From the NCBI GenBank assembly GCA_020002185.1, contig CM034542.1:55991280-56055279 (forward strand): a DNA stretch of 64,000 bases. Direction: 5' to 3'. A program made the translations under genes and the position numbers. Of this stretch, positions 11,201-64,000 are shown one piece after another. Position 1 is the first letter of the stretch. Each line of letters starts with the position of its first letter. Source of the DNA: Paraescarpia echinospica (Eukaryota; Annelida; Polychaeta; Sabellida; Siboglinidae). Under the pieces are notes generated by a model. It saw only the letters and a program-made list of their open reading frames with translations. It searched no databases and had not been told where the DNA came from.

Positions 11201-14200
11201 CACAAGACTGCTTATTGGGTGCATAATTAATGACCCACGCCAATCACATGAGCGGGTACAAATGAGCAGTGCATACATGTCATCATATACACATGGCTGT
11301 GTTTTAGTCGCCATTGTTTAATTAGTTATAACAAAAATGCAACAAAACAAACATTGATTTAAATAAATATCAAATAAAAAGATTACGCTTCAGGGTTGTC
11401 CTATTTTTCTAGGTAAGGTAAAGTTACTAGAAACATGATGGTGGTCAGTCGTATTGAAACCAGTGGGCCAGTAAAATATGAAACTGGTGGCCCGAACTGG
11501 CCCGACAGCCTCAAAGAAGGCGTTAATGTGTTAATGTTGAGGCGTGGTTTACACTGCCTGGCAGGTCACTGTAACTGGTTATTTGGACTGGCTTGATGAA
11601 CGGTCATTTAAAACAACTCCAATGGAGGTGGGCAGTGAATAATCCAGTGATACACTGCTAATAACATCAATAACAGTAACCATAATAATGTTTCACCAAA
11701 CTAGTTCCAGCCGTATCAGCGGGTGTACTGTGTGTATGAGGCATTATTTTTGTGACGAGTATGTCACCATTTGAATGGAATTAAAACAAAACAAATGGTT
11801 GGCAGTTCGGTTACCAATACCTGAACAGTTGCCAATACCTGAACAGTTGCCAATACCTGAACAAGTAATCACAGCATACAATCTGAGTATTGTGTGGAGC
11901 ACATTGGCATGGAGACTAGAGTGTCAGACTCAAATGAAAGAACGTGAGTTTAAATCCTGTGCTGCCGTTTCAAACCTTGGGCAAGTTTCTTCACTCTACG
12001 TTGCTCCAGTTCACTCAGCTGTATGAATGAGTACCTGGCTATAGACAATGGTGAATATTTGTGTATGAGTTGTCTTTGTGCATTAATGGCATGGCTGAAA
12101 GCTTCACAGAGAAGTCGATGGTGTTCGAATGAACAGATTTGCCAGGGATAAAGTATAAAGACTGAATATGGTGCTATATAAGAACTTACCTTTACAAACT
12201 TGTGTGGTGTTGTAGTTTGACAGACGAGGAGGCCCGCAAAAACTGGGAAGAGTACGGCAACCCCGACGGACCAGGGGGTAGGTTGTTTGTGACCAGTTAA
12301 GGGACGGGATGGGTCAAATTTCACTTTTTGACTCGGAAACTAAACATTTAAGAGATTGTGAAGTGTGTCAATGTCTACATGGTGGATTTGTTTTTAGAAT
12401 ATTTCAACAAGTTTTTACATGTCATGGTGGCCGTCTTTCATTTCAAGTGACATGAGCCACATTCGGTATCTACTTGTCATAGCTGTCCCAAAATTGGTAT
12501 GCAGGTACCTGATATGATCCCAAGGTATTTTTATCAGTTTTTTTTACCAGATATCTTGGTGTTGGCCTAGATTCATGGCTGATGAATGTTCCATGGCAAC
12601 TGAAATTATCAAAAATACACGAGGCATACAGTGTGATTCATTTTGTAGGTGAAATTTGATATTATCAGGAGTCAACATTTTATGGTGGTCACATTATGGG
12701 AACAATTAGTTTTCGCTAATTGTTACTCACTGACTACAGACGCATGTGGCTCCCTCTTGAGGCTTAACATACATTCATTTCAAAAGACAGTCAATTCCTG
12801 TCCTGCTGTGGATTTTTGCAATGGACACAAGGACAAGGCAGTAATAAAAAAATAGCTTCATAACAAAAGCAAACAAATGGCATAACAGTGTCAAGCGAGG
12901 ACAGTGTCAAGTAGTGTGACAACACTAAACAGTGGCTCCACCTGATGGGTAAACTAAAACAAATTGTCCTAAATTAGCTTGGTATATCTGTTTAAAAAAA
13001 AAATCAAAACGTCATTTATGTGAGTATTTTCTCTGACTGGATAGGCACATTATTTACATAGCTAAACTAATTACATTTAAGCCAATTGTAGTTAATGTTC
13101 TTCGTTTGTTTTATAACTTGTCAACTTAAAAACATTTAGACTTAGTTTGTACATTACATTATTTATGTGATTTCTTCAACTTTATTTCAGCCACCCATTT
13201 TGGAATAGCATTGCCCAAGTGGATTGTTGAAAAACAGAACTCAGTATGGGTAAGTGAAACAGTTTGCAAAAATCACTTCATGTTTGTATGCAGTTTTGTT
13301 GTATTTTTTAATGGTTAAGATATGGTACTTTAACTGACATCTTTCTGCATTGTCACAGTATTACCAGAAATGTTTACAGTTTGTGTCGCTTATTGAAAAT
13401 GTGGCAGTGCCACGTGTTCATTTCAAATCATTGCCAATTGTTAACATTTCTGAGTACAACACTGAGCAGAAAGTCCTATTCCACAGATATATCAGTGATT
13501 ATGAACACACTAGCTGTTGCATGGTGAGAAAAGATTCATATTTTCTAACTGAAGTAGCCTCTAGATTAGAGAGATTACACTATACCCACGTATAGCCTCA
13601 ATATTGTACAATGTCACCCTGGCATTTGTTGCTTAGTAACCGTGCCAGAAATAGCATGCACTCATCCCGTCAGCCACCCTGAATGCTGACGTTCCATTTG
13701 CACCCCAAATCTCCATACCAGATACCACCAGGGCAAACATTTCTTGATGGAGATATACACGGACATAAACAAAGACAAAAACCTACACTGTGTTATAGTA
13801 TAGATGTGACAACAGCTACAACTTCCACCTCCAAAGCAGAGTCACACAGGGAATTACCAATTTCTTCTCTGACTTAGACAAATATTATCCTTGTAACATA
13901 TCAAGTCCACATTTTTGTTTCCAACGTCTTTGGAAATGGTTAAATTCACAGATGTAAGTAGCACAGATTAGAAATAGGTGTTCCTCTCATTCTTTGTTAG
14001 GTGCAGCTGAGATGACTACTGAATTTTGCTGTGACCTAATAGTTCTGTTTGTGATGCGACCTAACTAGTTCTGTTTGTGATGCGACCTAACTAGTTCTGT
14101 TTGTGATGCGACCTAACTAATTCTTTTTGTGATGCGACCTAACTAGTTCTGTTTGTGATGCGACCTAACTAGTTCTGTTTGTGATGCGACCTAACTAGTT

Positions 14201-17200
14201 CTGTTTGTGATGCGACCTAACTAGTTCTGTTTGTGACGCGACCTAACTAGTACTGTTTGTGATGCGACCTAACTAGTACTGTTTGTGATGCGACCTAACT
14301 AGTACTGTTTGTGATGCGACCTAACTAGTACTGTTTGTGATGCGACCTAACTAGTTCTGTTTGTGACGCGACCTAACTAGTACTGTTTGTGATGCGACCT
14401 AACTAGTACTGTTTGTGATGCGACCTAACTAGTACTGTTTGTGATGCGACCTAACTAGTACTGTTTGTGATGCGACCTAACTAGTTCTGTTTGTGATGCG
14501 ACCTAACTAGTACTGTTTGTGATGCGACCTAACTAGTACTGTTTGTGATGCGACCTAACTAGTTCTGTTTGTGATGCGACCTAACTAGTTCTGTTTGTGA
14601 TGTGACCTAACTAGTTCTGTTTGTGATGCGACCTAACTAGTTCTGTTTGTGACGCGACCTAACTTGTTCTGTTTGTGATGCGACCTAACTAGTACTGTTT
14701 GTGATGCGACCTAACTAGTTCTGTTTGTGATGTGACTTAACTAGTACTGTTTGTGATGCGACCTAACTAGTTCGGTTTTTGATGCGAACTAACTAGTACT
14801 GTTTGTGTGTGCCAGGTCCTTGGCTTGTACGCGCTGGTCTTCATGGTTATTCTGCCAGTTGCTGTGGTAAGTACGTTGTTGTGTTTTTGTTTTGCACCAA
14901 AGGCAGGTGTGTATTTGATGTGTTTTCCACATCAGAATCAGTTTATCCAATTAAAAATTAATTCAAAGAATTAATATAATATGTTGTGATACTTGTAATG
15001 TTAACTGCCTGTATTGGTTCCAGGGCATCTTATGAGTTGTTGAATATTAACCACCTGTGCTGGTTCCAGGGCACCTGGTGGTATATGTAATGTTAACCAC
15101 TTGTGTTCATTCCAGGGCACCCAGTGGTATAAGTAATACTGACTGACTATGCTGGTTCCATGGCACCTAGTGATATGTGTGATGTTGACTAAATATGCTG
15201 CTTCCATGGCACCTGGTGGTATTTGTAATGTTGACTGGCTATGCTAGTTCCTGGGCACCTGGTGGTATGTGTAATGTTGACTGGCTATGCTGGTTCCAGG
15301 GCACCTGGTGGTACAGGTCAATCAAGTACAGTGCCGAGCAGATTCTGATGGACACGACTCAGCTATACTTCATCTTTCTCCACAAGACGCCGAATATGAT
15401 GCTCAAACGTATGTTGTCAAAGTGTGAATACGCACAAATATATCAGAATCATTTACCAAACCTTGTCTGAATGCTAAATTTCCTGTCTGTTGAAATTGTT
15501 CATGACGGTGTATAATAAAGGTAAGTTCTTATACAACGCAGTATCCAGTCCTCAGGACTGCTCAAAGCGCTTTACACTTTACTCCCTGGCAGACCTGTTC
15601 AATCAAACACCATCTCAACTTCTCTGGGAAGCATTCAGTCATCATGCAATAAATGCACGAAGACTAGTCCTACACAAATATCCACCACTGTCTATAGCCA
15701 GGTACTCATTTGTACAGCTGAGTGAACTGAAGCAACGTAGAGTAAACAAACTTGCCCAAGGTTTGTAAACATTGATCTTTAAGCAGCTGTTTTATAGTAA
15801 TTTTTTTCAAGATGACATCAGTGTAGATATTGATTACGTTGTAAAAACCTGAAACGTTACCAAATATATAAAACATATCTTATTAATCTTGATTATTACG
15901 TAATGTGTCATATACACCATCTATGACAAAATGCTTTTCTGAAACTGCTCTGTAAGCAAAATAGAAGTTGTCAGAAGTTAATCAAATGTCATACTTGGAG
16001 GGAAATAATTTCAGACAATATTAGCCATTTTTTCCTTTGGAACCTATTGGTTTGTGTGTGACTACAGTTTCGCGTAGAAAACTGATGGGTCAGTATGCTT
16101 GTCCCAGCCCCTCTGAAATGTTGGATAACCCACTGCATCCTGCTTTGTCTGAGCTGCATGGCTAATTAAATGTCTACAGTAATGTCTGATAATTTATTAA
16201 CACAAAATAAGTTAATTGCTTACACTTTGCAAGTTTAACTGGTATTAAAAACAAAAAATCCACAGTGCCTTTATAAATGCAATTAATGATTATAAATATG
16301 AAAATTTAAGAGTAACTACATTCGATGCACTAACTGATAATAGCTACTCTGAATACCTAAATAATAATCTGATTTAAACAAATAGTGTATCTTGAGCCGT
16401 TGTTTCCTTCATTCATAACACATCGCACTGTAACTTTGCTGGAAAACTTAAAAAATTGTCCACTTATTAGAGGGGCATCTGCATCCGGAAACAATTGGTA
16501 GACTGAGAAGCTGTCTGCACCTAACAGCTGTTGATTTGCTTGTAGCTCAAAGACTAACATGTTGCATGCTGATGTAGAACTTGAGGAGCAGAGTGTGGCA
16601 GTGGCTACAGGTTCGAACTCTCGACCGACAGAACCCAGATTTGAATCCTGTGCTGTGGTGTTCTAACCTTGGACAAGTTCGTTCACTCTACATTGCTCCA
16701 GTTCACTCAACTCTATAAATGAGAACTTGGCTATAGATGTTGGTGCATACTTGTGTACGAATAGTCTTTGTGCATTAACTGCAGCATAGCTGAATGCTTC
16801 CCAGAGAAGGCGAGAAGTGTAAAGCACTTTGAGCAGTCCTGAGGATTAAATACCGCGCTACATACGAACTTACCTTTATTGTAAATGGACACAGTTTAGC
16901 CCATGATTATATCAGTACTTCTGCAAATGAGAAAAAAATTGTCATGTGTCAGCAGCCCTGCAAGTTGAGAATTTGACGCAGAGATAGTGATTGAGACAGT
17001 TCTGCTTCAGGTGTGCTCATGGTGCTGGCTGCGTCCTTTGAGTTCAACCGCCAGTACAACCAGGAGGTAGTAGAGAGACCCTCTGACAACGAACAGATCC
17101 CACGGGTAAGTAATGGTGACGCGTCATAGTAAAGTGAAACATCACTGTTACAGTAACCCTCGGGACCGGCCAAAGGGGACCAGAATGGTGAGGAGACCAT

Positions 17201-20200
17201 ATTAGCGAGACTACAGGTGTATTCCTATTTTTTATTTTTACAGAAATAATTTGGGACTGTCCTAGGGTGAGCTTATTTACGAGGTAGTATTAGTCATAAC
17301 CTCACAAGAAGCTGGTTTCGATTCTGAATATTTCCTCATCAGAATGGTTTAATTTATTGATAACATGTATGAAGTGACTGTAGTCACTGTGCGATGTATC
17401 GGTCACATGTAATGTCGGTGTGTCACAAACGCATGTTTCTTGCAGCTGATGAAGAATCTGCCATACCTGAACGAGAAGAACAAGGAGCGCCCCCTATGTT
17501 TCCTGTACAGCATCAAGGCTCGATGCCTCATCCATTCACATCTGTCTCGTCTCGAACTGCCCCAGAATACCCTCGAGCCAGGTGAGTCTAGACACCATGC
17601 CGGGGTAGTAACAACAGAACATAGAGCGTGGTTAGAGTACCAGATTCTTAGTCGAGATATTCCGATTTCGAATCCTGTGCTGCTGTTTCAAACCTTGGGC
17701 AAGTTCGTTCACTCTACGTTGCTCTTGTTCACTCGGCTGTATGAATGAGTACCTGGCTATAGACTGATTTATATTTGTGTACAAATAGTCTTTGTGCAGT
17801 AAGTGTGGCTGAATGCTTCCCAGAGAGGTTGTGATGGTGTTTGATTGAACAGGTCTGCCAGAGAGAAGTGTAAACTGCTTTGAGCAGTCCTAAGGATTGG
17901 TTACTGCACTATATAAGAACTTAGCTTTACTTTTTTTACGTCAATATAGTGGGTTTATCAAGTTTTGATAGTTGGTCAGCTGGTTTATATAGTCTCCAAG
18001 TTCCCGAGCCAATATGATATACTCACTTTGGCTACAAAGTGAAATAATAAGTATTACTATATTTGCATAATAAAGTCTGTAGAAGTTCACAAAACTAAAT
18101 TGTTTACCAAACAAGAGTCATACAGTAATACAGGTGGGAAAACAATGATGTTATTAATCTGCTGTTATTTAATTACAACATAATCAATTACTGAGTAACT
18201 GTAGTACATCAAATGCAAAATGCTGCTTTTGTTATTCATTTTGATTTTGAAATTATACCATAGTTGATTTAATTTATGTAATTGCAGCAGTTAGTGTTAT
18301 TTGTAGTATTGTATTACAGTGCAACACGCTTACAACGAACACGTATACCGTATTATGTGTCATCTAAATAAATGTTACACAATAAAATATCTTTGCATTT
18401 GATAGACACCTGGCGAATAGTTTAAAAACTGTCACATACATCATTGCCACCTAGCGGGCAAACGTGTACACGCATATAACAAATTCATGGATACTACGAA
18501 CTTGTTAGCTACCCACAAAGTAGTTCGTTATAAGCATGTTGCACTGTACCTGAAAAACTCTAAAACACCATGTGATAAATTATGTGCCATGTTGTATAAC
18601 TAGTGTGTTGTCGCATGACAGAATCTCACTGCTACTGTGAAGAAGTCTTTTTATTTTACATACTTACTGCCTATTAGCTTACTGGCGTTTTGGGCAGTAA
18701 CAAAATTCCTCCACGCCGGTCTAACTCTTGCTAACCTCTTGAGGGTACCCAGCTTTGTCCTGCTTCCTTCATCTCCGCTTCCACTGTTCACTGCCAGGTT
18801 GTTTTTAGACTTCGTCTCTTCCTTTTCCTTTCATGGGACCAGCACACTACAATTATTGTGACTGATTTGACATAAATATCTGCCCTGGTGGTTTCAGACA
18901 AGGACTACTGCCTCAAGAAGTGTCTGTATCTGCTCAATGAGATGATCAACATTGTGGCTCAGCTGGTCACAATGGCCCACGCAGGCAGAGGTGAGGTTAC
19001 ACACACTGACATGCTGAGAGGACGTTTTGCACAACTGAGTGTAGGAAATAAATAGGTTCATTGAAGCTACTCTCAATTAATAGAGTACTTCTGTTGCAGA
19101 AGCCATTGTCCAAATCACAGCTTGGCTAGGTGCCTTGCCATAAAAGGAAGCAGTCTGTTCCTAGTTTTTCATTTATTAATTAATATAGTGTGTTCTTAAA
19201 ACTATACTAATTATGTTGAAGGTATACTGCCTACCAAATTCTTCAGTGTAGCGCCGTGGTGCAGTGGCTAGAGCTTCGGACTCTCAACCGAGAGAACCCG
19301 GGTTCGAATCCTGTGCGGCGGTGTCGAACCTTGGGCAAGTTCGTTTATTATACGTTGCTCCAGTTCACTCGGCTGTATGAATGAGTACCTGGCTGTAGAC
19401 AGTGGTGGATATTTGTGTACGAATAGTGTTGGCTGGTTGCTTCCCAGAGAAGTTGAGATGGTGTTCGATTGAACAGGTCTGCCAGGGAGTAAAGTGTAAA
19501 GCGCTTTGAGCAGTCCTGAGGACTGGATACTGCGCTATATAAGAACTTACCTTTACCTTTTCAAATTCTATTTAGTAAACCCGTAACAACATATGCAATT
19601 TGGAACATACGCCCCGGAGCATGTTCAATAGTAAACAAAACATCCAGTTTCAAAGCAAGCTTTATTGGTAATAATGCCGAGGCAGCAGCCGAGATGAGCT
19701 GAATTGATATTCAACAGTGTCTCATTTTCCCACGTTCTACATGGCAGACTTCCTGTTACAAATTACTGTGCTGGCGGGTAGAGGAACAGACTAGGTCCCT
19801 TTAAGATCCTAGATCTTCTTTGTGGTAGCTTGGCTGTGTTGTCTTTGATACAGTAAGAGAGAGTATGGTGTTTGTGTCAGTTTAGTGGCTGTGTTGTGTG
19901 TGTGACGTGATGACTGACAGCGTGGTGTTAGTGTTAATGATGGTATTGTTTATGACACTAACTGACAGCGTGGTGTTAGTGTTAATGATGGTATTGTTTA
20001 TGACACTAACTGACAGCGTGGTGTTAGCGTTGATGGCGGTGTTGTTTATGACACTAACTGACAGCGTGGTGTTAGTGTTAATGATTGTATTGTTTATGAC
20101 ACTAACTGACAGCGTGGTGTTAGTGTTAATGATGGTATTGTTTATGACACTAACTGACAACGTGGTGTTAGCGTTGATGGCGGTGTTGTTTATGACACTA

Positions 20201-23200
20201 ACTGACAGCGTGGTGTTAGTGTTAATGATTGTATTGTTTATGACACTAACTGACAGCGTGGTGTTAGTGTTAATGATGGTATTGTTTATGACACTAACTG
20301 ACAACGTGGTGTTAGCGTTGATGGCGGTGTTGTTTATGACACTAACTGACAGCGTGGTGTTAGTGTTAATGATGGTATTGTTTATGACACTAACTGACAA
20401 CGTGGTGTTAGCGTTGATGGCGGTGTTGTTTATGACACTAACTGACAGCGTGGTGTTAGTGTTAATGATTGTATTGTTTATGACACTAACTGACAGCGTG
20501 GTGTTAGTGTTGATGATGGTATTGTTTATGACACTAACTGACAGCGTGGTGTTAGCGTTGATGGTGGTGTTGTTTATGACACTAACTGACAGCGTGGTGT
20601 TAGTGTTAATGATGGTATTGTTTATGACACTAAGTGACAGCGTGGTGTTAGTGTTAATGATGGTATTGTTTATGACACTAACTGACAGTGTGGTGTTAGT
20701 GTTAATGAGGGTATTGTTTATGACACTAACTGACAACGTGGTGTTAGCGTTGATGGTGGTGTTTATGATGATGAGTGACCGCGTGGGGTTAGTGTTAATG
20801 AGGGTATTGTTTATGACACTAACTGACAGCGTGGTGTTAGTGTTAATGATGGTATTGTTTATGACACTAACTGACAGCGTGGTGTTAGTGTTAATGAGGG
20901 TATTGTTTATGACACTAACTGACAGCGTGGTGTTAGTGTTAATGAGGGTATTGTTTATGACACTAACTGACAGCGGGTGTTAGCGTTGATGGTGGTGTTG
21001 TTTATGATGATGAGTGACCGCGTGGTGTTGTAGTGTCGAAGATGCCGCGTCTGACGACGGTGGAGAACATAATGAAAGTGAGTCAGATGGTGGTGCAGGC
21101 TCTGTGGGACAACAAGAGCTCTCTGCTCCAACTACCCCATATCTCGGAGGATCAACTCCGACACTTTGTCACACGCAAGGTACTCACATTCTTTGTCAAT
21201 GGTTACTTCAATGGGCACTGTCATTTTAACTAAATATCACTCAAAGCAATGTACAGTGCTACATGAAACCGATGTCATTCATAACTTATGGACAGTAAAA
21301 ACATTGATATCAGATAAAATTACTTTTGTTTGGGGAAGAAGGGGTTCAGAGGCAGTTTCACCGGGCGTCGGACATCGATAGTTTACATTTCAGACTGATA
21401 CTGGTAATATATTTATATCATCATATCGATGTTTACACACGTCCGTCGGAGAAGGCGGTAGGGCCGAGGCCATATGAAAGTAATTTTGTCTAATATTGGA
21501 CATCAACGTTCTGAGATGATCCCTAACCATGATCTCATTTCATAATTGTTTTACATTTTGTAATTAACTGTGGGCCTAATTTTAGTTAATTTTATTTACT
21601 TATTTATGAAAAAAATTTGATTTTAATTAATAATTTATTAATAATTTCATTTTACACACAGACACACCCATGCTGACATAATCATAGCAGAATGTTAACT
21701 TTCTTCCCCACACTCCCAATAAACTGAACTTGTAATGTTTGGCAGGCAGCAGTTGGAGGTGTGCTTTATGGGTGATACCGTGTGTATGCCAACCATGTCT
21801 GGTTCAATAAAATCGCATGGTCAGTTTTTTTTTTGCTTAATGGTTATTGATTTCTGCAAAATGAAAAATTACATTGAGATATTCATCATCTCTCCTGTTA
21901 GAAATTCTTTGAATCCTGCTAGACTGTCTCCTTGACCAAATCAGACCCAGTATCCCAGTCCATATGTGGCAATTTTGTACAGGGGATTTTAACAAGTCAC
22001 TGTTGATTTCAGCGGAATATTCGTAACATCCGCCAGCTGGTCAGTATGCGAGAGGACGAACGCAGGGCACTGCTGCGCACCTTGGCGGACGACGAGTACA
22101 ATAATGTGATGAACGTGTGCGCCAACCTGCCCTACATCGAGATGGACGTCAAGACCGAAGGTGGGTCTAGTCTCGAGGCAGTTATGCTGAATGGTGCCCT
22201 CGTTCTGGCACGCCTACTACACCTAATACTAGTAGCCAACTTGTAATAGTTCTTTTTCATTTTGTAGTAAATTTCATAGGTCACTCATTGTGATGTCAGG
22301 TGACCCATTGTCCAATTAATGGCACTGTTGAGTAGAGCTCTTCAATTTCCTCTTTCCATCAGCTCAGCTATTTCCAATGTTCCTGCAAATAAACAATGTT
22401 GAATTTAGGAAACTGAGCCTAAATATGAGTTAACTAATTTAACACTGTTCAGATTAATTCAGTTTAGATATTGGATTATGGGACTTATCACCAAGTGTAC
22501 AGCTGGCTAAATGGAAAAGAAATACAAGAGAACCTTGTTATGTTGATTCAGTCAGACTAAAATCCCAATCCATTACTTTGGCCAACTTTTAATTTGCTTC
22601 TACGTAATTACCTGTATGCATTGGTCATATACAGTGCACTCCAGATAACTCGAACTCACATAAGTTGATTTTTGCTAAGTTAAGTCAAACTTTTCCTTGG
22701 TCCTGGGCAAAGGTCCCAATAAGGGGACCTTCTGATAACTTTCTATTTAACAGAAATTCCACTTATCAGTATTGTTGTGGGTCCCTGGAAGTTCAACCTT
22801 ATTCAGAATGCACTGTATGTTTTCCTTTATTCTTTCTCTAATAATTAATGTTGGATATGATTATACATATGGGCCATTCTCGTGAAAAGTGTACAGTAAA
22901 AATAACGTGTAAAGTAACATATCAAAAATAAATGTTTAATTTGTATGTTTTTTAGCGAGTACTATAAATATAAAATGTGCTATTCATATGAAGCAGTGCA
23001 ACTTAATCTTATCTATTATTTGGTTTAAAAAAATATATTCATGGATAAAAACAGATGTAAACTAGAGTGCAGATTTGCTGGTGTCCAAAATTTGTGCTTC
23101 GCAAAATTCCGTGGCAACACAGTATTGTGTACTTTTTAACAAACCTAAAACTTTTACATTGAATGATGACATGCCAGTCAGATTTACTAACAACCATAGC

Positions 23201-35641: not shown

Positions 35642-35647
35642 AATAAA
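35642..35647 (+). promoter_or_regulatory. Candidate SEC63 poly(A) signal
   Basis: First AATAAA after the stop, about 270 nt downstream. Several other AATAAA motifs follow, so this is only the nearest candidate. Confidence 0.35.
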
Positions 35648-44783: not shown

Positions 44784-44891
44784 ATGACAGAGCAAACTCA
44801 ACAGGTTTTGGACGTATCAAAGTCTCTGGAAACGTTGTGCAAGAAAAACGAAAAATGCTCTTCCGAACTGCAAGGATTTTTAGCCAAGCAG
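44784..44891 (+). CDS. MDN1: MDN1 exon 1 (start codon)
   Basis: MTEQTQQVLDVSKSLETL followed by KNEKCSSELQGFLAKQ; the K-NEK-SELxxFLAKQ pattern is conserved in animal midasins. Donor CAG|gtttgt. Confidence 0.92.
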
Positions 44892-53800: not shown

Positions 53801-56800
53801 TCACTGGGAACGCAGTATTCAGGGGTCACAGCTGGTCAGGGCTGTAGTATTGAAATGGTTAAAGGGCTGTTGTTTGTTTCAGTGGATTTTCATTGGAGTT
53901 TTATAGCACATCGATGTGCAGAAACTTAATAAGTCACAACAAAACAGCTATTGTTGCCGATTTGAATTAGAATTGAGTTAGAATTGAATACAATGAATTG
54001 AATTGGAATTGATCCTTATTTGTGAGTATATTGGATTGAATTGAATTGGAATTAATCATTGGTAAATACACACAAATTGAATAGTGAATTTAACCTAGGT
54101 CTGCTACCAATATTCTACTTGTCCTTTCAACACCCTACTTTTCCTACTGACGTCCTACTTGTCTTGTTGCCAGCATAAGACGTCCCTGCTGCTGTCAGTG
54201 CCATCAACGCGCCGTAACATGCACAGTCTGGCCCTGGCAGTGGCCTCGGGCCACCCCGTCCTGTTGGAGGGGCCGGTGGGGTGTGGGAAGACAGCCCTTG
54301 TAGAACACCTCGCCCTCCTGACGGGGCGCGTCACAGCGCCCCACCTACTCAAGGTGCAGCTGGGAGACCAGACCGACAGCAAGGTGGGTGCCCACGGTAC
54401 AGAACAGGATATTTAACAAGATTTAACAGGATATTTAACATGATTTAATAGTATATTTAACAAGATTTAACAGGATATTTAACATGATTTAAAGGGAGGC
54501 AGTCTGTTCGTTTACCCGAAATTAGTCGGCTTAGTAAATTGTAACAGGAAGTCTGTTGGGTTGAACGTGGGAAAATGGGACATTGGTGAACATCAAAGGG
54601 TATTGCAGTTAACGTAGCATGACCCGGCTGTGTTGCCATTAAGGCGTGTTTTGAAACTGGATGTTTTGTTTATTATTTGAACCTGTTACGGAATCAAACC
54701 TTCCAAATTGTGAATGTTGTTACGGGATTACTAAACACAATTTGGGGGGCAGCATACTTTCAACATAGTTTGTATTGTCTTAAATATGTTAATTAATAAA
54801 CGAAACCCTAGGAATAGACAACCTCCTTTTAATTGTATATTTAATTTAATAAGATAGCTACAGTGTGTGTGTGTACGTGCGTGCTTGCGTGTGTGCATTG
54901 ACCTGTCACAGCAAATTGGGTATTAAGTTACCAAACTGTTAAATTGAGTTTTTTTCTGTTTTGGATGTCACAGATCACAAGCTTTAAAATTATAACCTCA
55001 TTTGTTAAAATATCTTCAGCAGTTTTTGATGTATTGCTAAAACTGAAGCAAAGGTAGAAATGTGACATTTTGAGTAACGAGGTCGTTTGATGATATTGCA
55101 TTTTGTTGTTTAATTTGTGGGTTATTGAATGTACTTTATTACTATTGGATTATTTTTCAAGGAGAATAAACTGGACAATAAACGTGTTGAGATTATAAGG
55201 TGTGCATTTCTGCCAAAATCACAAAACTGCTGTTTTTGGCATATGTGCAGAGTAGACCAGTGCGACTTAGTGTCCAATTCCCTGTGGCAGGGCATGTATA
55301 TTAAGGCCACATGTGGCACGTACAATTTTGTTGTTTTAACAAAATATTTAAAGTGTGTCTGCCATATTGTGATAGCTTTGTATGTTGACAGTTGGTTAAG
55401 TTCCTTTTTATAACAGTTGCATGCGTCTACTCGAAATAGCCTTTATTCTTCAATCATTGATGACCGTTTTCGGAAGAGAGACAAAATTGTGTTTGGAAGA
55501 AAACATCTCTGAAAGTAGTTATGCTTATCAAATAGGCTTTTGAGTGATGTATTTAGCATATTTCTACTCTACACATCTGGTAGAAAACATTAAAAATCAT
55601 CACAAGTTTATATAAAATATATCTAAGAAGATGGTTTGGTAGTGGTTTGTGTGTAGGATTAGTTAATATTGTGTGACTCATCAGCTCGTGCTGTCCACTA
55701 CAGGCCCTGCTGGGGACATATCGGTGCACGGATGTCCCTGGTCAGTTTGAGTGGCAGGCAGGAAGTCTCACCCAGGCAGTGACCGCTGGTCATTGGATCC
55801 TACTGGAGGACCTTGACTATGCCCCCATGGATGTCGTGTCCATGCTCGTACCTCTCCTCGAGGGTAATACCCTCTCTGTGCCCGGGCACGGTGATGTCAT
55901 CAAGGCCGCTCCTGGATTCAGGTTGTTTGCCACTCAGAGGTAAATTATGACAAGTTTGTGTCAAAATATCTGATACTATTGTGCGTTTGATGCGTTAGGA
56001 AGTTGCAGATTGTGAAAAACTAAGAAAAATAAAAGCTAAAACATTGGATTATTTTATGGTAAGATGCTGGAATTGTAATAAGTAATCCAACTGTTCACAG
56101 ACAGTGATGTGGCTGACTCCATACAAAGGTTCTACTGCAGTACATACTGTGTGGAATCATTATGTTAAATATGTACATACCTTGCAAACATAAGATAATA
56201 TTAAATGTTCTTGGTGGTATTGGTAAAAGTTTCATAAATTCATTAAAGATTATTTATGTTTCTTTTCTCTTACTGTAGTTTGGAATGAAGCTGGCCTCGG
56301 TATGGTCCTCAATTTATTTCTTTTCCCTTCACTGCTGCCATTAAATCACGATTGTTTTTTTGATCGTCCGTTGTGTTTTGCCAGGCTGATGAGGAGTGAG
56401 TTTGGTTGGTACAGGACTCGTAGCTCAGGGTCTGACATCTTGGAGCGAATGTGGACAAAGATTTGTGTCGAACCGCTGTCCCGGGCAGAATTACAGCAGG
56501 TCTGTGATTGGTTGATTTCAGGGAATAAATAATAATTTCTGTATCCTGATAGATTGATATTACTGACAACATTTAATACGATATACAAAGCTTTCTTCCC
56601 CAGATAGCAAATAAACAAGGAATCATTTGGCTAACAAGTCTTAGCAGTGTTTCATCATTACAAAGTATTTTCCTTTGTGTTGCTGCTTTCAAGGTGTTTA
56701 CTTTTAAACTATGTAACAAATTGATTTTTTTAATGATAAATGGTCTTGATTTTGTAAACATTTCAGACAATAACTTGGAGAAGTGTAAACCAATAACAAC

Positions 56801-59800
56801 TTGCCCTGTCTCCAAATAATGACATGCCATTTCTCCAAATAATGACTTGCCCTCTCCAAATAACGACTTGCAATGTCTCCAGATAACAACTTACCCTGTC
56901 TTCAAATAACAACTTGTCGTGTCTTCAAATAATGACATAATCACTGTCCAAATGACCACTTGCCCTCTCTACAAACAATGACATGCCTTATCTCCAAATA
57001 ACAACTTGCCCTGTCTCCAAATAACAACTTGCCCTTTCTATAAATAACGACTTACCCTCTCTCCAAATAACAACTTTCTCTCTAAATAACAACTTGCCCT
57101 GTCTCCAAATAACAACCTACCCTGTCTCCAAATAATAACTTGCCCTGTCTCCAAATAACAACTTGCCATGTCACCAAATAACAACTTGCCATGTCTCCAA
57201 ATAACAACTTGCCATGTCACCAAATAACAACTTGCCGTGTCTCCAAATAACAACTTGCCGTATCTCCAAATAACTACTTGCCGTGTGTTTCCATCTGGTT
57301 GCAGGTGATTGTCTACAAGTACCCTCAGTTGACCACTGTGGTGGACAGACTACTGGACATCTACTTCCTGCTGTCAGCTGGACGTCATGACACGTCCAGT
57401 GATGCAACACTAGAGGTCGAGTCCGACACTGACATTGGCAAATTCTTGACCCGAGATGGTCGACTTATCTCCACTAGGTATGACTTATTATTTTTTAGTA
57501 TTATCTAGTACACGTTTTATATATAAATTTTCCACCATTCTTTACTGATTTATTAACGTTATATCTTTAGTGATTATCTTTGGTGTGGTAGTAACACTGC
57601 ATTGTGGTAGTAACACAGCGGTGTGGTAGTAACACAGCGGTGTGGTAGTAACACTGCGGTGTGGTAGTAACACAGCGGTGTGGTAGTAACACAGCGGTGT
57701 GGTAGTAACACTGCGGTGTGGTAGTAACACAGCGGTGTGGTAGTAACACAGCGGTGTGGTAGTAACACAGCGGTGTGGTAGTAACACTGCGGTCTGGTAG
57801 TAACACTGCATTGTGGTGGTAACACAGCGGTGTGGTGGTAACACAGCGGTGTGGTGGTAACACTGCGGTGTGGTAGTAACAGCGGTGTGGTAGTAACACT
57901 GCGGTGTGGTAGTAACACTGCGGTGTGGTAGTAACACTGCGGTGTGGTAGTAACACAGCGGTGTGGTAGTAACACAGTGGTGTGGTAATAACACAGCGGT
58001 GTGGTAGTAACACAGCGGTGTGGTAGTAACACAGCGGTGTGGTAGTAACACTGCATTGTGGTAGTAACACTGCGGTGTGGTAGTAACACTGCGGTGTGGT
58101 AATAACACAGCGGTCTGGTAGTAACACAGCGGTGTGGTAGTAACACAGCCGTGTGGTAGTAACACAGCGGTCTGGTAGTAACACAGTGGTCTGGTAGTAA
58201 CACTGCGGTGTGGTAGTAACACAGTGGTCTGGTAGTAACACTGCGGTGTGGTAGTAACACAGCGGTGTGGTAGTAACACTGCGTTGTGGTAGTAACACAG
58301 CGGTCTGGTAGTAACACAGCGGTGTGGTAGTAACACAGCGGTGTGGTAGTAACACAGCGGTGTGGTAATAACACAGCGGTGTGGTAGTAACACTGCATTG
58401 TGTTGTAACACAGCGGTGTGGTAATAACACAGCGGTGTGGTAGTAACACAGCGGTCTGGTAGTAACACTGCGGTGTGGTAGTAACACAGCGGTGTGGTAG
58501 TAACACTGCGTTGTGGTAGTAACACTGCGGTTTGGTAGTAACACAGCGGTGTGGTAGTAACACTGCGTTGTGGTAGTAACACTGCGTTGTGGTAGTAACA
58601 CTGCGGTGTGGTAGTAACACTGCGGTGTGGTAGTAACACAGCGGTGTGGTAGTAACACAGCGGTGTGGTAGTAACACAGCGGTGTGGTAGTAACACAGCG
58701 GTCAGGTAGTAACACAGCGGTGTGGTAATAACACAGCGGTGTGGTAATAACACAGCGGTGTGGTAGTAACACTGCATTGTGGTAGTAACACTGCGGTGTG
58801 GTAGTAACACAGCGGTCTGGTAGTAACACTGCGGTGTGGTAGTAACACAGCGGTGTGGTAGTAACACTGCGGTGTGGTAGTAACACTGCGGTCTGGTAGT
58901 AACACAGCGGTGTGGTAGTAACACTGCGGTGTGGTAGTAACACTGCGGTGTGGTAGTAACACAGCGGTGTGGTAGTAACACAGTGGTGTGTAGTAACACA
59001 GCGGTGTGGTAGTAACACAGCGGTGTGGTAGTAACACAGCAGTGTGGTAGTAACATAGCGGTGTGGCGGTAACACTGCGGTGTGGCGGTAACACAGCGGT
59101 AACACAGCGGTGTGGCGGTAACACTGCGGTGTGGCGGTAACACTGCGGTGTGGCGGTAACACTGCGGTGTGGCCGTAACACAGCGGTGTGGTGGTAACAC
59201 AGCGGTGTGGCGGTAACACTGCGGTGTGGCGGTAACACTGCGGTGTGGCGGTAACACAGCGGTGTGGCGGTAACACAGCGGTGTGGCGGTAACACTGCGG
59301 TGTGGCGGTAACACTGCGGTGTGGCCGTAACACAGCGGTGTGGCGGTAACACAGCGGTCTGGTAGTAACACAGCAGTCTGGTAGTAACACAGGTGTGTGT
59401 GATGTGTCGTAATGTAGTGAGTAGTTTGTAGTGCATGTGCTTCACTCTGTTGCTTTCAGCTGCGACCACCAGCTAGCCCCCTCACAGGGGCGAAAAGGTA
59501 CACAAGTGCACAAGCCTCCCCTGCTGGTATATAGCCTCTCCATAGACAAGACTCTAGCATGATCTCCTTGTGGTACACTGCGGTAACTGGGCACATCGCG
59601 GCCCCAGGCTAAGATGCCAGGGATCTAGGAGAAGGACAACTCTGATTCCAAACCTGGGTAGAAGTAGCTCATTAGCCTTGGCAGGCAGTGGGTCTAGGAG
59701 AAGGAAAACTCTTGACTTCAAAACCATAGATGCTGAACCCAGGCGTAGGTGAATAACCTGGCCAACTCGGGCAACCTGAGTAGGGTAGTGGGAACACTGG

Positions 59801-62800
59801 TGGAGGAAATTCCATCTAAAGACGGACGAGTCAAATTCATTGTCCAACAGCGACCACAACCCAGTCAGCCAGTGGCGCGGCGACGGAAACAACAGCCAAC
59901 GAAAGAACATGATGAGCACAATGACAAGCACCAGGGATGAAGGCCCTGATACATGATGAGCACAATGACAAGCACCAGGGATGAAGGCCCTGATACATGA
60001 TGAGCACAATGACAAGCACCAGGGATGAAGGCCCTGATACATGATGAGCACAGTGACAAGCACCAGGGATGAAGGCCCTGATACATGATGAGCACAATGA
60101 CAAGCACCAGGGATGAAGGCCCTGATACATGATGAGCACAGTGACAAGCACCAGGGATGAAGGCCCTGATACATGATGAGCACAGTGACAAGCACCAGGG
60201 ATGAAGGCCCTGATACATGATGAGCACAGTGACAAGCACCAGGGATGAAGGCCCTGATACATGATGAGCACAATGACAAGCACCAGGGATGAAGGCCCTG
60301 ATACATGATGAGCACAATGACAAGCACCAGGGATGAAGGCCCTGATACATGATGAGCACAATGACAAGCACCAGGGATGAAGGCCCTGATACATGATGAG
60401 CACAGTGACAAGCACCAGGGATGAAGGCCCTGATACATGATGAGCACAATGACAAGCACCAGGGATGAAGGCCCTGATACATGATGAGCACAGTGACAAG
60501 CACCAGGGATGAAGGCCCTGATACATGATGAGCACAGTGACAAGCACCAGGGATGAAGGCCCTGATACATGATGAGCACAATGACAAGCACCAGGGATGA
60601 AGGCCCTGATACATGATGAGCACAATGACAAGCACCAGCGATGAAGGCCCTGATACATGATGAGCACAATGACAAGCACCAGGGATGAAGGCCCTGATAC
60701 ATGATGAGCACAGTGACAAGCACCAGCGATGAAGGCCCTGATACCGAAGGTGACTGCAGCAATGTGGACATTATTATGGACATTCCAGTACCCAGATGGT
60801 GGTAAAGCACAGATAGATCATATTCTTGTTGGGAAGAAGTGGATCAACTGTGTCAGAGATGCAGCCGCATACAGCTCTTTCATGTCAGTTGGCTCAGACC
60901 ACTCAATACTATCAACTGTCATTAGATTGAGTCTCAGAGCTCCAAAGAAAACACCATCTGCTAGACTGAATGTCTATTGGAGATCCATGAAGAATGATGA
61001 CAACTTGCAAAGGAACTTCACACTTGGACTCAAGAACAAATATGATATTCTGTGCAAAGATATAGAGGACACGGTTAAGAAATAAAATTGCCTAGTGAAA
61101 GCTAATCACCAAGTAGTTAAAGGATACCACCAAGAAAGAAGAAAACACTGAAAAGACTCATTCTGCCTGATGACCCAGATGTTTGACAAGCAAGAAAAGA
61201 TGTAATTAAGAACGTACCAAACTCGAAGGAAACTCTTGCTTATGCATGCAAGCAAACAGGAGAGAAATACTACTCTACACTCCTCTGAGTGTGAACTCTC
61301 ACATAGTCAAGGTGACTCGACAAGCTTGTACAGTTATAAATCATGTAACCGAACAAACCAGATAGAGTGATTGAAATTGATTTGGATATCAGCCCTGAAA
61401 ACTTCACTTTAATCGAAATGGATGAAGTGCTTAAGAAACTCAAATATGGAAAAACAGGTGGACTGGATGGAATTCCACCAAAAGTCTGGAAGTTGGATGA
61501 ATTCAAATCAGCACTACTGGAACTTTGTAATCATACCTTCAATAATCTGGTAAAGCCTGATGCTTTCACAAAAAGTGGGATAGTACTCCTTACCAAGAAA
61601 GGAAATCTCCCACTGGCAACAAACTATCTAGGTATCAGCTTGACACCAATAGCAGCTAAGATTTATAATCGTCTCTTACTAAATGACGATGCAAACCTGC
61701 CATTGAACCTCTTCTGAGATGGAATCAAAATGGCTTTCTCACAAGTCGATCTACAACTGGCCACATATTAGCTCTGTGCAAAACTGTTGAAGAAGCAGAT
61801 GTCAACAACTTGCCTGTAGTACCGTCATTTCTAGATTTCAAAAATGCCCACGGATCCAAATATCATAGCGAAATATGGACCCCCACCTATGAGATTAGTA
61901 AATGCCCTAATGTGTATATAATTGGATTTGTACCCACTGGTCCAAATATCACCAGGTCCATATTTCATATGACACCGGTATCTAGGTTCCTGGATGCACA
62001 GTGCAAGCAAGGAAGTTCACCCAACGCATTGCCCTAGCCAGGCAAACATGCAACAAGCTAATCCATGTATGGAAGGCAAACATAAGAAGAACCCTTAAAT
62101 TGTTGATCTTCAGTGCCACCGTTGAAAATATACTGTTGTACGGAGCAGATACCTGGACCCTCACGAAAGAAATAGAAAAAAACTAGATGGAAGTTACACC
62201 AGAATGTTAAGAAAGTGCCAAATGTCCACCGGATCAACAGGCTTACAAATGAAGAACTATGTGGACATGTAGACAACCTCACACACAAGATTCACAGGAG
62301 GCGCCTACAACTAGCTGGCCACTGCTATCGTAGACCGAAGAACCAGTGTCAGTATTCATCTTGTGGACACACACATGGCAAGAAAAACAGAGGGAAACAA
62401 GAAAACATACACCAAGTTGATCTGCGAAAACCTCGGTATTGAAGAAACAGACCTTCCATCCCTGATGAACGATCGACCCATACGGAAAAGGCTCATCTAT
62501 GCTCCGGCCCCGGCTGACCGATGATGATGGTTATCTCTGTATCTTTTTAAAAATTTAATATATTGTCATATATTAGTTGATTATCATAATTTTACAAAAC
62601 TTCAATTTTTTGCATTTATAATTATGCATTTTAAGCACCTCTGAATGGATTTATCTAGATTTATGGTGCTATATAATTATTATTGTGACATTAGAATGAT
62701 TGAAGCTGCAGTTGTTACTACTAATATTACATTTTATGTATCATGCCCGATCCGAGTAATTTTAGTAGGGCGATTTACAGTGGTGTGCACATGATTACGT

Positions 62801-63325
62801 CATAATAGGATATTTTTAATTTACTAAATTCCAAATGTCCACAGTTATCAGATTTGTTGCACAGAAACATGCTGTTATATTACTGATATAATAATAGTAA
62901 TAAATGAACTTGTAAAGTGCCATAAATCTAGACGAAAGTCCATTCGGAGGTGCTAAACAATGCAATAACAAAAGGATGAAATACATAAGTACTAAACCTG
63001 GTTAATGAAATAAATGATAATAAATAAATTGGCTAAAAACGTGGCACATATAGGCAAGGTAATTATGTTGTGTGTATATATATAAATGCAAATTAGCGGA
63101 ATGAATAGTGATAACATTAACATGACACAATGACTTATGTGGTGCAGGGACCTGATGAAGTGGTGCGGGCGGATCGTGCGGTGCTTTGAGGCGAGCGCAC
63201 CATCTGCTGCCAACCTGGTCTACCAGGAGGCCCTCGACTGCTTCTGTGCGTGTCTGCCTCACTCCAGACAGAGACAACCCTTGGCTGAGGCCATCGCTGT
63301 CAGACTCAACCTCTCTAGAGCCACG
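44784..63325 (+). CDS. MDN1: Midasin (MDN1), N-terminal 593 codons in 11 exons, continues beyond window
   Basis: Midasin is a giant dynein-like AAA+ ATPase (about 5,500 residues) in the nucleolus and nucleoplasm that strips assembly factors from pre-60S ribosomes. Exons: 44784-44891, 46794-47020, 47531-47615, 50361-50506, 51696-51803, 52411-52603, 54174-54383, 55704-55939, 56385-56499, 57305-57477, 63148-63325. They sum to 1779 nt in one frame. The N-terminal domain (residues 1-289) aligns in order with animal midasins (LQGFLAKQIWTPNDRQ; ELRELWDWSDF; VMAVCGVLLP). AAA1 follows with Walker A GPVGCGKT at 322-329, LLKVQLGDQTDSK, CTDVPGQFEW, Walker B WILLEDLD at 390-397 and APGFRLFATQR. The start is the ATG of exon 1, after gaccgag. 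The remaining AAA modules and MIDAS domain lie right of the window. Confidence 0.95.
45184..46480 (+). mobile_element. Second SINE family, plus-strand copy split by a DNA transposon
   Basis: Head gtggtcgagcagtcagag at the left; box B-like ggttcgaatcctgg after the insertion; then cttgggcaattttgttc, gtagactcactgagctgg and the tail to about 46480. Interrupted between 45230 and 46186. Confidence 0.88.
45231..46185. mobile_element. Mutator-like nonautonomous element nested in a SINE, 9-bp target duplication
   Basis: 955 bp flanked by CTGTCGATC on both sides (45222-45230 and 46186-46194), in the middle of a SINE that reads correctly once the insert and one copy are removed. Inverted ends about 36 bp: CGGATGTTTCGGCCCCTG left, CGGATGGTTCGGCCCCCG right on the minus strand. 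Many internal gggccgaaccatccg motifs. A 9-bp duplication is typical of Mutator-like elements. No transposase. Confidence 0.88.
46794..47020 (+). CDS. MDN1: MDN1 exon 2
   Basis: Encodes IWTPNDRQALLDQLCNLL through to SKTLALSAENK. Acceptor ttttcctcag, donor AAAAG|gtagct. Confidence 0.94.
47531..47615 (+). CDS. MDN1: MDN1 exon 3
   Basis: Encodes RFSVKYLHNTPAFYKEQ and QPITKKAKK, matching the ALRYFKDTSPVF-type segment of midasin. Acceptor gcccttgcag, donor AAA|gtaagt. Confidence 0.92.
47746..49967. mobile_element. Probable 2.2-kb DNA transposon remnant in MDN1 intron 3
   Basis: Inverted terminal motifs: TTCTAATTAGCGTAC then CCTAATTAGCGTACACC on the left, and on the right (minus strand) TTCTAATTAGCATAC then CCTATTAAGCGTACACC. 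Inside are two minus-strand open frames (49065-49385, 106 codons; 49458-49715, 85 codons) that I do not recognise, and an inserted SINE fragment. Superfamily not determined; target duplication not clear. Confidence 0.55.
48451..48543 (-). mobile_element. tRNA-derived SINE, copy 8, 3' fragment
   Basis: Minus-strand fragment of the first SINE family: aaaggtacattcttatat, gctcaaagcgctttacac, cctggcagacctgttc. Nested in the larger element. Confidence 0.85.
50361..50506 (+). CDS. MDN1: MDN1 exon 4
   Basis: Encodes SRDKSRPKLREVVQAVHR and CPELRELWDWSDFLVFL; the FRELWDWS motif is diagnostic for animal midasin. Acceptor ttgcttccag, donor CGATG|gtaaat. Confidence 0.95.
50507..51317. other. MDN1 intron 4, unique part
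   Basis: AT-rich unique sequence; no recognised element before SINE copy 9. Confidence 0.5.
51318..51658 (+). mobile_element. tRNA-derived SINE, copy 9, close to MDN1 exon 5
   Basis: Head ggagtgcagtggctagagc, internal partial duplication of the tgctgccctttcaa block, body, 3' end gaagaacttatctttat. It ends 37 bp before the exon 5 acceptor. Confidence 0.9.
51696..51803 (+). CDS. MDN1: MDN1 exon 5
   Basis: Encodes WHAVHSVALLLDMAPPRV and LRQKYFTPQEERDLSLR. Acceptor gtctgttgcag, donor CTCAG|gtgtgc. Confidence 0.92.
51804..52410. other. MDN1 intron 5, no feature seen
   Basis: Unique AT-rich sequence; no repeat recognised. Confidence 0.5.
52411..52603 (+). CDS. MDN1: MDN1 exon 6
   Basis: Encodes RYDQAVEKACGKALLLSN and DLSEGVMAVCGVLLPK; the VTAVCGVVLP-type motif precedes AAA1 in midasins. 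Acceptor atggagcacag, donor CAT|gtgagt. Confidence 0.94.
52770..53070 (+). repeat. About 20-bp pyrimidine-rich array, left part
   Basis: Irregular copies of a unit around tcctacttgtcctaccaaca. The same unit reappears at 54097-54160, directly before the MDN1 exon 7 acceptor, so one array seems to have been split by the sequence between. Confidence 0.8.
53243..53858. mobile_element. TTAA-flanked nonautonomous element (piggyBac/Kolobok type)
   Basis: Inverted ends CCATTTCAGTACGACAGG and (minus strand) CCATTTCAATACTACAGC, each directly bordered by TTAA (53239-53242 and 53859-53862). 616 bp. It contains a 134-codon plus-strand frame (53275-53679, with LMMDYQNLRWPQWRTALT) that I do not recognise as a transposase. 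Confidence 0.82.
54097..54160 (+). repeat. About 20-bp array, right part, abutting MDN1 exon 7
   Basis: Three units (attctacttgtcctttcaac and relatives) running into cctacttgtcttgttgccag|CATAAG. It forms the polypyrimidine tract of exon 7. Confidence 0.82.
54174..54383 (+). CDS. MDN1: MDN1 exon 7 (AAA1 Walker A)
   Basis: Encodes LALAVASGHPVLLEGPVG with Walker A GPVGCGKT, then TGRVTAPHLLKVQLGDQTD. Nucleotide-binding Lys and Thr are intact. Acceptor cttgttgccag, donor AAG|gtgggt. Confidence 0.97.
54403..54495. repeat. 32-bp tandem repeat, about 3 copies
   Basis: AT-rich unit aacaggatatttaacat plus gatttaa repeated from 20 bp after the exon 7 donor. Confidence 0.85.
54496..55703. other. MDN1 intron 7, mostly unique
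   Basis: AT-rich sequence with a short (GT)n run at about 54863-54875; no transposon ends or coding similarity recognised. Confidence 0.5.
55704..55939 (+). CDS. MDN1: MDN1 exon 8 (AAA1 Walker B)
   Basis: Encodes LLGTYRCTDVPGQFEWQ, the Walker B strand HWILLEDLDYAPMDVVSML, and VPGHGDVIKAAPGFRLFAT with the midasin FATxR motif. Acceptor ccactacag, donor CAGAG|gtaaat. Confidence 0.97.
55940..56384. other. MDN1 intron 8, no feature seen
   Basis: Unique AT-rich sequence. Confidence 0.5.
56385..56499 (+). CDS. MDN1: MDN1 exon 9
   Basis: Encodes RLMRSEFGWYRTRSSGSD and WTKICVEPLSRAELQQ, the sensor/lid part of AAA1. Acceptor gttttgccag, donor CAGCAG|gtctgt. Confidence 0.93.
56795..57288 (+). repeat. 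About 23-bp array ending just before MDN1 exon 10
   Basis: About 21 copies of a unit around cttgccctgtctccaaataa. The array stops about 16 bp before the exon 10 acceptor, whose region cttgccgtgtgtttccatc resembles the unit. Confidence 0.92.
57305..57477 (+). CDS. MDN1: MDN1 exon 10
   Basis: Encodes VIVYKYPQLTTVVDRLLD and LTRDGRLIST, the C-terminal lid of AAA1. Acceptor catctggttgcag, donor ACTAG|gtatga. Confidence 0.94.
57580..59395. repeat. 19-bp satellite, about 95 copies, in MDN1 intron 10
   Basis: Unit cggtgtggtagtaacacag, with cag/ctg alternating as acacagcgg or acactgcgg. Two domains: tggtagtaac units at 57580-59060 and tggcggtaac units at about 59065-59345. Long minus-strand frames encoding His/Thr/Cys-rich repeats are artefacts. 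Confidence 0.95.
59460..62530 (+). mobile_element. Degenerate APE-type non-LTR retrotransposon (LINE) in MDN1 intron 10
   Basis: Broken ORF pieces in order: the end of an APE endonuclease (QIDHILVGKKW ... SVGSDHSIL) at about 60800-60910; reverse transcriptase fragments (MDEVLKKLKYGKTGGLDGIP, SFLDFKNAHGS) at about 61420-61850; then the C-terminal segment (LLYGADTWTLTKEIEKN, HRRRLQLAGHC) to about 62310. The catalytic YxDD region is lost between about 61925 and 62000, and there are many stops and frame changes. The 3' end is a short gatgatgatgg run. Clade not resolved; the C-terminus resembles the craniofacial development protein 2-like endonuclease-RT elements common in marine invertebrates. 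Confidence 0.88.
59908..60748 (+). repeat. 44-bp satellite inside the LINE
   Basis: About 19 copies of a 44-bp unit (gatgagcacaatgacaagca, ccagggatgaaggccctg). Flanked on both sides by LINE sequence, so it expanded within the element. Because 44 is not a multiple of 3, all three frames cycle through the array; minus-strand frames are artefacts. Confidence 0.95.
62531..63147. other. MDN1 intron 10, right part
   Basis: AT-rich unique sequence up to the exon 11 acceptor; no element recognised. Confidence 0.5.
63148..63325 (+). CDS. MDN1: MDN1 exon 11 (last in window)
   Basis: Encodes RDLMKWCGRIVRCFEAS and NLVYQEALDCFCACLP, ending EAIAVRLNLSRAT; the L-KWCxRI...FQEALDCF pattern is midasin-specific. 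Acceptor atgtggtgcag, donor ACG|gtgagt. Its last bases and donor are repeated downstream. Confidence 0.95.
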
Positions 63326-64000
63326 GTGAGTTCGGGTAGAGCAGGGCAGGGTGAGATAGGGTAGGGCGGGGTAAGATGTGCTATGTCTCACCAGGGTTGT
63401 GGTGAGTTAGGGTAGGATGGGGCGTCCTTGTGCGCCAGGGGGTGTTGCTGATTTCATCAGTCTGTGTACCCCATGGCAGATCGCCTGACGAAATTTGGAG
63501 TATAAGCCCAGCCAATAATATCGCTTGCCGGTCAGTTCCGGTGGTCTTCATGGAATGTTTGGGCAGTAGACGTAATTATATATTTATAAGCAACACCACT
63601 CAATGGCTCGTGAGAATGGTCAAATGGGTAATTATACTGGGTTTCCTGGAATTGGGCGCGGGTCAGACAGATGTCTGCACTGTTCTCACGGGTGGTATGG
63701 CAAGAGATCTGCCAGGGTAGTGTACTTACTAACACCCCCTGGCTTGTGAGGATATGGTGGGGCAAGACGGTGTCAACCTCACCAAAGCCACGGTGAGTTA
63801 GGGTAGGGCGGGGAAAGACAGGGGCAACCTCAGAGCCACTGTGAGTTATGGTGGGGTGGGGCAAGATGGGCTCAACCCGATCCGGGTCATGATGAGTTAG
63901 GGTAGGGTGGGGTGAAGTGGGCTTATCCTCACAACGGCCATGGTGAGTTAGGGTAGGATGGGTACAGATGGGCTTAATCTCACCAGGGCCACAGTGAGTT
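63302..64000 (+). repeat. 48-51 bp array of duplicated MDN1 exon 11 donors
   Basis: Units contain ctcaacctc...gagccacg|gtgagtt followed by agggtagggcgggg. Donor-equivalent positions: 63326 (real), 63402, 63793, 63841, about 63892 (broken, gatgagtt), 63943 and 63994. A MITE interrupts the array at 63434-63743, and it runs past the window edge. Confidence 0.92.
63434..63743. mobile_element. 310-bp MITE inside the donor array
   Basis: Inverted ends gccagggggtgtt at 63434-63446 and its complement at 63731-63743. CTTGTG directly flanks both sides (63427-63432 and 63743-63748). No coding capacity; superfamily not assigned. Confidence 0.75.

Follow-up and report, generated by a model that had tools for sequence, protein, structure and literature searches.

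In the siboglinid annelid Paraescarpia echinospica, minisatellite arrays sit at the splice junctions of two protein-coding genes. Within the window, as we call the whole 64,000-nucleotide stretch of DNA that was analysed, arrays, or copies of them in degenerate form, were found at 11 of the 62 junctions: seven in SEC63 and four in MDN1. At five of these eleven (15300, 21034, 25150, 31421 and 63325) the repeat unit contains the junction itself together with 11-26 exonic bases; at the other six (14816, 26751, 35234, 54174, 54383 and 57305) there is adjacency only, with the match ending 1-19 bases before the exon. The arrays are of a known kind, the mirage minisatellites, found here densely packed in a phylum other than that of amphioxus. 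Taken as a whole, they are probably best explained as mirage-type minisatellites whose decoy splice sites are tolerated or weakened according to the order in which they are transcribed.

Genes and junctions in the window

Three genes were mapped (Table 1) by tblastn with human sequences, and with PDB and Pfam matches for SEC63 and MDN1. They comprise 62 junctions: 35 in SEC63, 21 in MDN1 and 6 in IST1. The two array-bearing genes had been called neighbouring; they are not immediate neighbours, IST1 sitting between them on the opposite strand. The SEC63 and MDN1 models were built by hand from the reading frame and the GT/AG signals. The former comprises 736 codons and is open through every junction, the latter (11 exons) comprises 593 codons and is open throughout, and neither has an inner stop. 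The part coding for the first 41 residues of SEC63 was searched for in the window and not found, so that the exon numbers originally given for this gene are at least one too low. Positions 1-7817, ahead of the first SEC63 exon that the window contains, are taken up by a 78-bp satellite interrupted by 1000 N, and the N-terminal coding part could lie inside this gap.

The protein predicted for SEC63 shares 91% identity with that of Ridgeia piscesae (classed in Siboglinidae, Annelida) and 89% with that of Lamellibrachia satsuma, both vestimentiferan tubeworms, against 61% with that of the annelid Owenia and 53% with that of Branchiostoma floridae; these values point to a vestimentiferan or a close relative, and not to amphioxus. 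When the SEC63 and MDN1 models are aligned with the proteins of relatives, the exon junctions are mostly colinear and gap-free, and the Lamellibrachia protein is gap-free at the SEC63 junctions. Between SEC63 exons 5 and 6 (acceptor 14816) the Capitella model has one additional residue exactly at the junction, where the window is matched by Ridgeia, Lamellibrachia and Owenia; between exons 13 and 14 there are gaps nearby in the alignment. In the SEC63 model of Ridgeia (P0001) some 20 residues are scrambled after the junction of exons 6 and 7 (acceptor 15300), precisely at the exon that in the window bears the 46-bp array. A reading of this odd segment as translated array was rejected (shuffle P 0.34), and the segment was left out of the evidence. 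In MDN1, the junctions of exons 3 and 4, 5 and 6, and 6 and 7 (acceptor 54174) fall in poorly conserved stretches, and those from exons 7 and 8 to exons 10 and 11 are well conserved. The donor at 63325 rests on the frame, the splice signal and a conserved LNLSR edge, the next exon lying beyond the window.

Arrays at the junctions

Tandem Repeats Finder (TRF) returned 56 rows, which we merged by hand into 23 arrays from base 8164 onwards, 22 of them inside the three genes; the 78-bp satellite was excluded from this count. Arrays make up 27% of the intron DNA of the genes (12,717 of 46,416 bp). A TRF array lies within 25 bp of 8 of the 62 junctions, six in SEC63 and two in MDN1, and of none of the 6 junctions in IST1. 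Three further junctions (MDN1 54174, MDN1 63325 and SEC63 35234) were recognised by alignment of the unit and not by TRF distance. Unit-to-junction local alignment was run at 14 chosen junctions among the 62; at 24327 and 33868, where the arrays lie further off, and at 57477 it gave chance-level matches only.

The original prediction named eight junctions as a minimum, and the count of 11 bears this out: all eight carry arrays or degenerate copies, although at 54174 and 63325 these are only degenerate or interrupted, and donors 26751 in SEC63 and 54383 in MDN1 and acceptor 35234 in SEC63 come in addition. Units containing exon-edge bases plus the splice site had been claimed for four junctions. 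We found five, four of them strong. The weak one is acceptor 21034, which the 48-bp unit crosses by alignment with a gap, reaching 11 exonic bases. Both kinds of boundary are spanned, the donors at 25150 and 63325 and the acceptors at 15300, 21034 and 31421. The units differ in sequence and length, as expected of the separate events that had been proposed; they vary in length between 11 and 65 bp where they accompany junctions, a wider range than the 20 to 60 bp first given.

Table 1. Genes and junction-associated arrays in the window
Feature	Positions	Strand	Description
SEC63	8164..35371	+	18 coding exons within the window; PDB and Pfam matches, tblastn
IST1	39110..44052	-	4 exons; Pfam Ist1, E 9.5e-61
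MDN1 (midasin)	44784..64000	+	coding exons 1-11; gene continues past the window end
SEC63 acceptor 14816	14033..14815	+	26-bp array, TRF 29.8 copies, ends at 14807, 9 bp before the acceptor
SEC63 acceptor 15300	14994..15313	+	46-bp array, 7 copies, spans the acceptor; 14 exonic bases in unit
SEC63 acceptor 21034	19913..21044	+	48-bp array; TRF end 21029, 5 bp from the acceptor
SEC63 donor 25150	25129..25392	+	58-bp array, 5 copies, spans the donor; 22 exonic bases in unit
SEC63 donor 26751	26753..26891	+	65-bp two-copy duplication beginning 2 bases beyond the donor
SEC63 acceptor 31421	27288..31446	+	36/39-bp array, spans the acceptor; 26 exonic bases in unit
SEC63 acceptor 35234	35188..35214	+	degenerate weak 11-bp copies, ending 19 bp before the acceptor; main array 34827-34979
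MDN1 acceptor 54174	54104..54163	+	20-bp copies in degenerate form that stop 10 bp short of the acceptor; unit is that of array 52912-53058
MDN1 donor 54383	54403..54492	+	22-bp array beginning 20 bp past the donor
MDN1 acceptor 57305	56792..57286	+	23-bp array ending 19 bp before the acceptor
MDN1 donor 63325	63306..64000	+	donor and copies: weak copy at 63382, unrelated stretch, 51-bp array 63749-64000

The array at acceptor 14816 contains 28 CTAAC motifs, and its sole CAG is the real acceptor. Donor 63325 is itself a copy of the 51-bp unit, which includes 20 exonic bases, and the TRF array begins 424 bp further on; the weak second copy, 76 bp on from the copy at the donor, has 12 mismatches in 31 bases, a level unmatched in 200 random array-free stretches. 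Within the array at 31421, at 27200-31162, a block of about 1.98 kb has itself been duplicated as a second-order repeat, the two copies being 97.5% identical.

This near-duplicate, together with the 1000 N in the upstream satellite, is what might point to an assembler that inflated or misplaced repeats. We consider such an artefact very improbable: in most of the arrays that were measured the units have diverged from one another, the coding exons are intact, and unrelated units occur at separate junctions. Array copy numbers could still be wrong despite the intact exons and diverged units.

Other repeats were noted in the window. At 31955-33700 lies a 54-bp array. By eye its units resemble the initial part of a tRNA-derived short interspersed element, and a B-box-like stretch comes next; ARAGORN found no tRNA genes and Rfam no RNAs in the window. 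A 44-bp array at 59907-60744, in an MDN1 intron, sits in what by eye appears to be a decayed LINE open frame, and Pfam returned no family for the frame flanking it. A dispersed repeat with CTGGCAGACCTGTTCA is present in six copies in both orientations (15586, 17846, 19470, 26400, 48506 and 51568). A 19-mer of a repeat seen in the window matched 12 bacterial records, which were taken from their titles as chance matches, and had no match in viral contigs.

Exon edges as the likely source of the copies

The peptides encoded at the copied exon edges recur in other animals. GTWWYRS (after 15300) and EWWW(L/V)Y (EWWWLY after 31421) are present in Owenia and Capitella proteins, as is the edge peptide TPNG, and LN(I/L)(S/T)(K/R), beside donor 63325, is found in Owenia, Mactra and three others. 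The edge VSKM at 21034 is shared with the two tubeworms and only in part with Capitella and Owenia. Because the copied coding edges are mostly found in the proteins of relatives, the exon edge is likely to be the origin of the copied sequence and the array its copy.

Placement of the arrays relative to chance

In a genome rich in minisatellites duplications may be seeded anywhere, a few of them landing on junctions by plain chance. The large share of arrays in the intron DNA favours this explanation, and so does the choice of the window, which was noticed for this very feature. All placement P values given here are conditional on that choice. We used two null models. In the first, whole arrays were placed randomly in 8164-64000 with up to 35 exonic bases allowed. 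Within 25 bp of a junction, 8 of the 23 arrays were seen against 1.86 expected (P = 2.9e-4); with arrays of score at least 100 the figures are 8 of 18 against 1.49 (P = 4.4e-5), and with score at least 150, 8 of 15 against 1.27 (P = 1e-5). Within 10 bp, 6 of 23 were seen against 1.39 expected (P = 0.002), and within 50 bp, 8 of 23 against 2.63 (P = 0.003). In the second model, one unit was seeded in array-free genic DNA for each of 22 arrays, giving 8 of 22 against 2.16 expected within 25 bp (P = 7e-4) and 6 against 1.58 within 10 bp (P = 0.0036). Over the score cuts and both nulls, chance has to account for 8 arrays within 25 bp where 1.3-2.2 are expected (P 1e-5 to 7e-4), 6 within 10 bp where 1.0-1.6 are expected (P 2e-4 to 4e-3) and, under the first null, 8 within 50 bp where 1.8-2.6 are expected (P 1e-4 to 3e-3).

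Random seeding under the second model yields 0.78 units spanning a junction with at least 10 exonic bases. The statement in the original prediction that chance adjacency cannot produce such units was thus too strong. The five spanning arrays observed still exceed this figure: P = 0.04 for three, 0.006 for the four strong cases and 7e-4 for all five.

A test independent of TRF used 24-base windows placed over the junctions. A local copy was found for 4 of 62 (15300, 25150, 31421 and 63325), acceptor 21034 not being picked up, compared with 2 of 66 for the wholly exonic edge and 1 of 674 for the exon interior. In intron DNA, the windows with local copies numbered 6, 8, 10, 8, 9, 11 and 12 of 61 at 0, 12, 24, 50, 100, 200 and 300 bp from the junction; there is no rise towards the junctions (6 of 61 at 0 bp against 12 of 61 at 300 bp). 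This flat rate speaks for chance, but we think that it partly reflects long junction-anchored arrays that fill the farther windows. We read these results as a local excess of arrays at junctions that is real within the window, and regard plain chance as a rather unlikely explanation of the whole.

The excess might instead arise from seeding directed to junctions, if some feature of splice junctions in germline chromatin or in transcription starts duplications. Candidate causes are pausing, R-loops, nucleosome edges and the step in base composition. The occurrence of arrays at both donors and acceptors, their unrelated units and the two-copy duplication that begins 2 bp from donor 26751 are in line with such seeding, as is the local excess itself. 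An identical pattern would be produced by retention of arrays that carry splice signals; moreover, the units share no motif by eye, and the 6 junctions of IST1 have no array. We hold directed seeding to be unlikely. The shared seeding mechanism of the original prediction is something that we infer at most, retention of signal-carrying arrays explaining the same picture. Seeding driven by DNA structure, such as G-quadruplexes at splice sites (PMC9065059, available in part), was dropped as a candidate on the grounds that the units are unrelated in composition by eye.

Decoy splice sites inside the arrays

Arrays that span a junction contain additional copies of its splice site. We scored these decoys with matrices derived from the other real junctions (fewer than 30 sites), the five spanning ones being left out. 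Donor 25150 has a score of 11.0 and its decoys 3.8, 11.0, 11.0 and 9.3, so that two of four equal the real donor. Donor 63325 scores 8.6 and its decoys 8.9, 8.6, 5.7, 1.7 and 8.9, three of five equalling or exceeding it. The dinucleotide GT is kept in three of four decoys at 25150 and in four of five at 63325.

At the acceptors the decoys are mostly lower. Acceptor 15300 scores 11.8 and none of its six decoys (8.5, 7.7, 7.7, 3.6, 0.9 and 2.8) reaches it; AG is kept in the three distal ones and lost in the three nearest the real site. None of the 22 decoys at acceptor 21034 (score 5.3) reaches it, the best scoring 2.6. The array at 31421 holds 106 copies, including the real site, with at most 4 mismatches in the 25 bases across the acceptor. 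The 105 decoys have a median of 1.8, and 5 of them score at or above the 4.3 of the real site; AG is kept in 102 of the 106 copies (101 of the 105 decoys). The real acceptors at 31421 and 21034 are themselves weak compared with the median of 11.3 for real acceptors. Reading on from the copies at 31421 meets a stop within nine codons in 104 of 106 cases, the open ones being the real site and a degenerate copy at 27158.

New here is that several decoy donors equal the real site, and that decoy acceptors are mostly weaker or broken. Decoy acceptors are transcribed before the real site and decoy donors after it, so this pattern is the one expected from selection against early decoys. We infer such selection from two donors and three acceptors.

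These observations fit the following scheme. A short local tandem duplication would have included an exon-intron junction or begun right beside one, and the array would then have grown towards the intron. The last copy, at the exon edge, would remain the real splice site, since the protein depends on it, and splicing would use this copy alone, the other copies being intronic decoys. Decoy donors may be tolerated because transcription reaches them only once the real donor has been passed; decoy acceptors, which come ahead of the real acceptor in the transcript, may have been weakened by selection. Arrays near junctions would survive mainly when their unit supplies the signals required there. 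Divergence of the edge unit is inconsistent among arrays: the last unit stands at 0.85 against a mean of 0.968 for the middle units at 14816, at 0.83 against 0.948 at 21034 and at 0.87 against 0.864 at 57305, and a low last unit (0.84 against 0.928) also occurs in one of the four arrays compared that lie away from junctions.

Comparison with known systems

Mirages are known in amphioxus from Adh3, the globins BflGb6 and BflGb9, TnC and PGBD5, according to the available portions of two reports (PMC3087553, PMC3902484). The comparison with amphioxus Adh in the original prediction was right about the class of minisatellite. The tubeworm arrays resemble those accounts in that exon-intron boundaries, 5' as well as 3', are copied in tandem in the manner of a minisatellite, and in that AG or GT persists in many of the units, though not in all. 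They differ in their host, an annelid and not a cephalochordate; in their number, with eleven junctions in two genes, five of them truly spanned; and in the size of one array, which reaches 4.1 kb with about 105 decoys. Units of 11-65 bp compare with 10-72 bp in amphioxus Adh3 and 150-160 bp in the amphioxus globins, as given in the same portions. Regular splicing of Adh3 and the globins is there reported as undisturbed (PMC3087553).

The authors of the globin study proposed for mirages an intron gain after the Rogers model (PMC3087553, from the portion available), in which tandem copies made the introns. For the tubeworm genes this origin is hardly credible. The units do carry donor or acceptor signals, and potato RdRp, in the accessible part of its description, provides a precedent in which a duplication likewise crosses an intron-exon boundary carrying splice signals (PMC4974935). 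But the five spanning units aligned to one intron end only, and, compared with potato RdRp, our models contain no new intron and the arrays stand at one end of the intron.

Human segmental duplications also have minisatellites, some of them located at exon-intron boundaries, with units averaging about 30 bp (PMC2812944, in the excerpts available). In the human case expansion gives rise to new introns or to alternative splicing among paralogues of recent origin, whereas the tubeworm coding sequence aligns with single proteins of relatives. Among annelids, intron 1 of the earthworm metallothionein gene also contains minisatellites, with mean monomers of 178 and 181 bp; the available part of that report describes no splice sites inside the arrays (PMC12783039) and mentions fourth-exon duplications that are absent from the transcript. 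In the Ridgeia genome paper, as far as its accessible text goes, tandem repeats appear as an annotation step and are not mentioned at splice sites. Judged by titles and the beginnings of abstracts, we saw no report of such arrays in annelids among the matches listed from open PubMed Central.

Implications

The presence of mirages in a tubeworm suggests that amphioxus may not be alone in this process. A broader version, in which junctions are preferred starts of tandem duplication across Bilateria, mirages are the trace of this general process and a first-transcribed rule picks the survivors (decoy donors being harmless and acceptors disarmed), strikes us as unlikely. Each array amounts to a natural experiment that sets near-copies, as many as about 100, beside the real site, and it bears on the choice of the exon-proximal site. 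Gene models at array-bearing junctions may be wrong. If vestimentiferans carry mirages at this density, the published tubeworm genomes would allow both the seeding bias and the tolerance of decoys to be counted.
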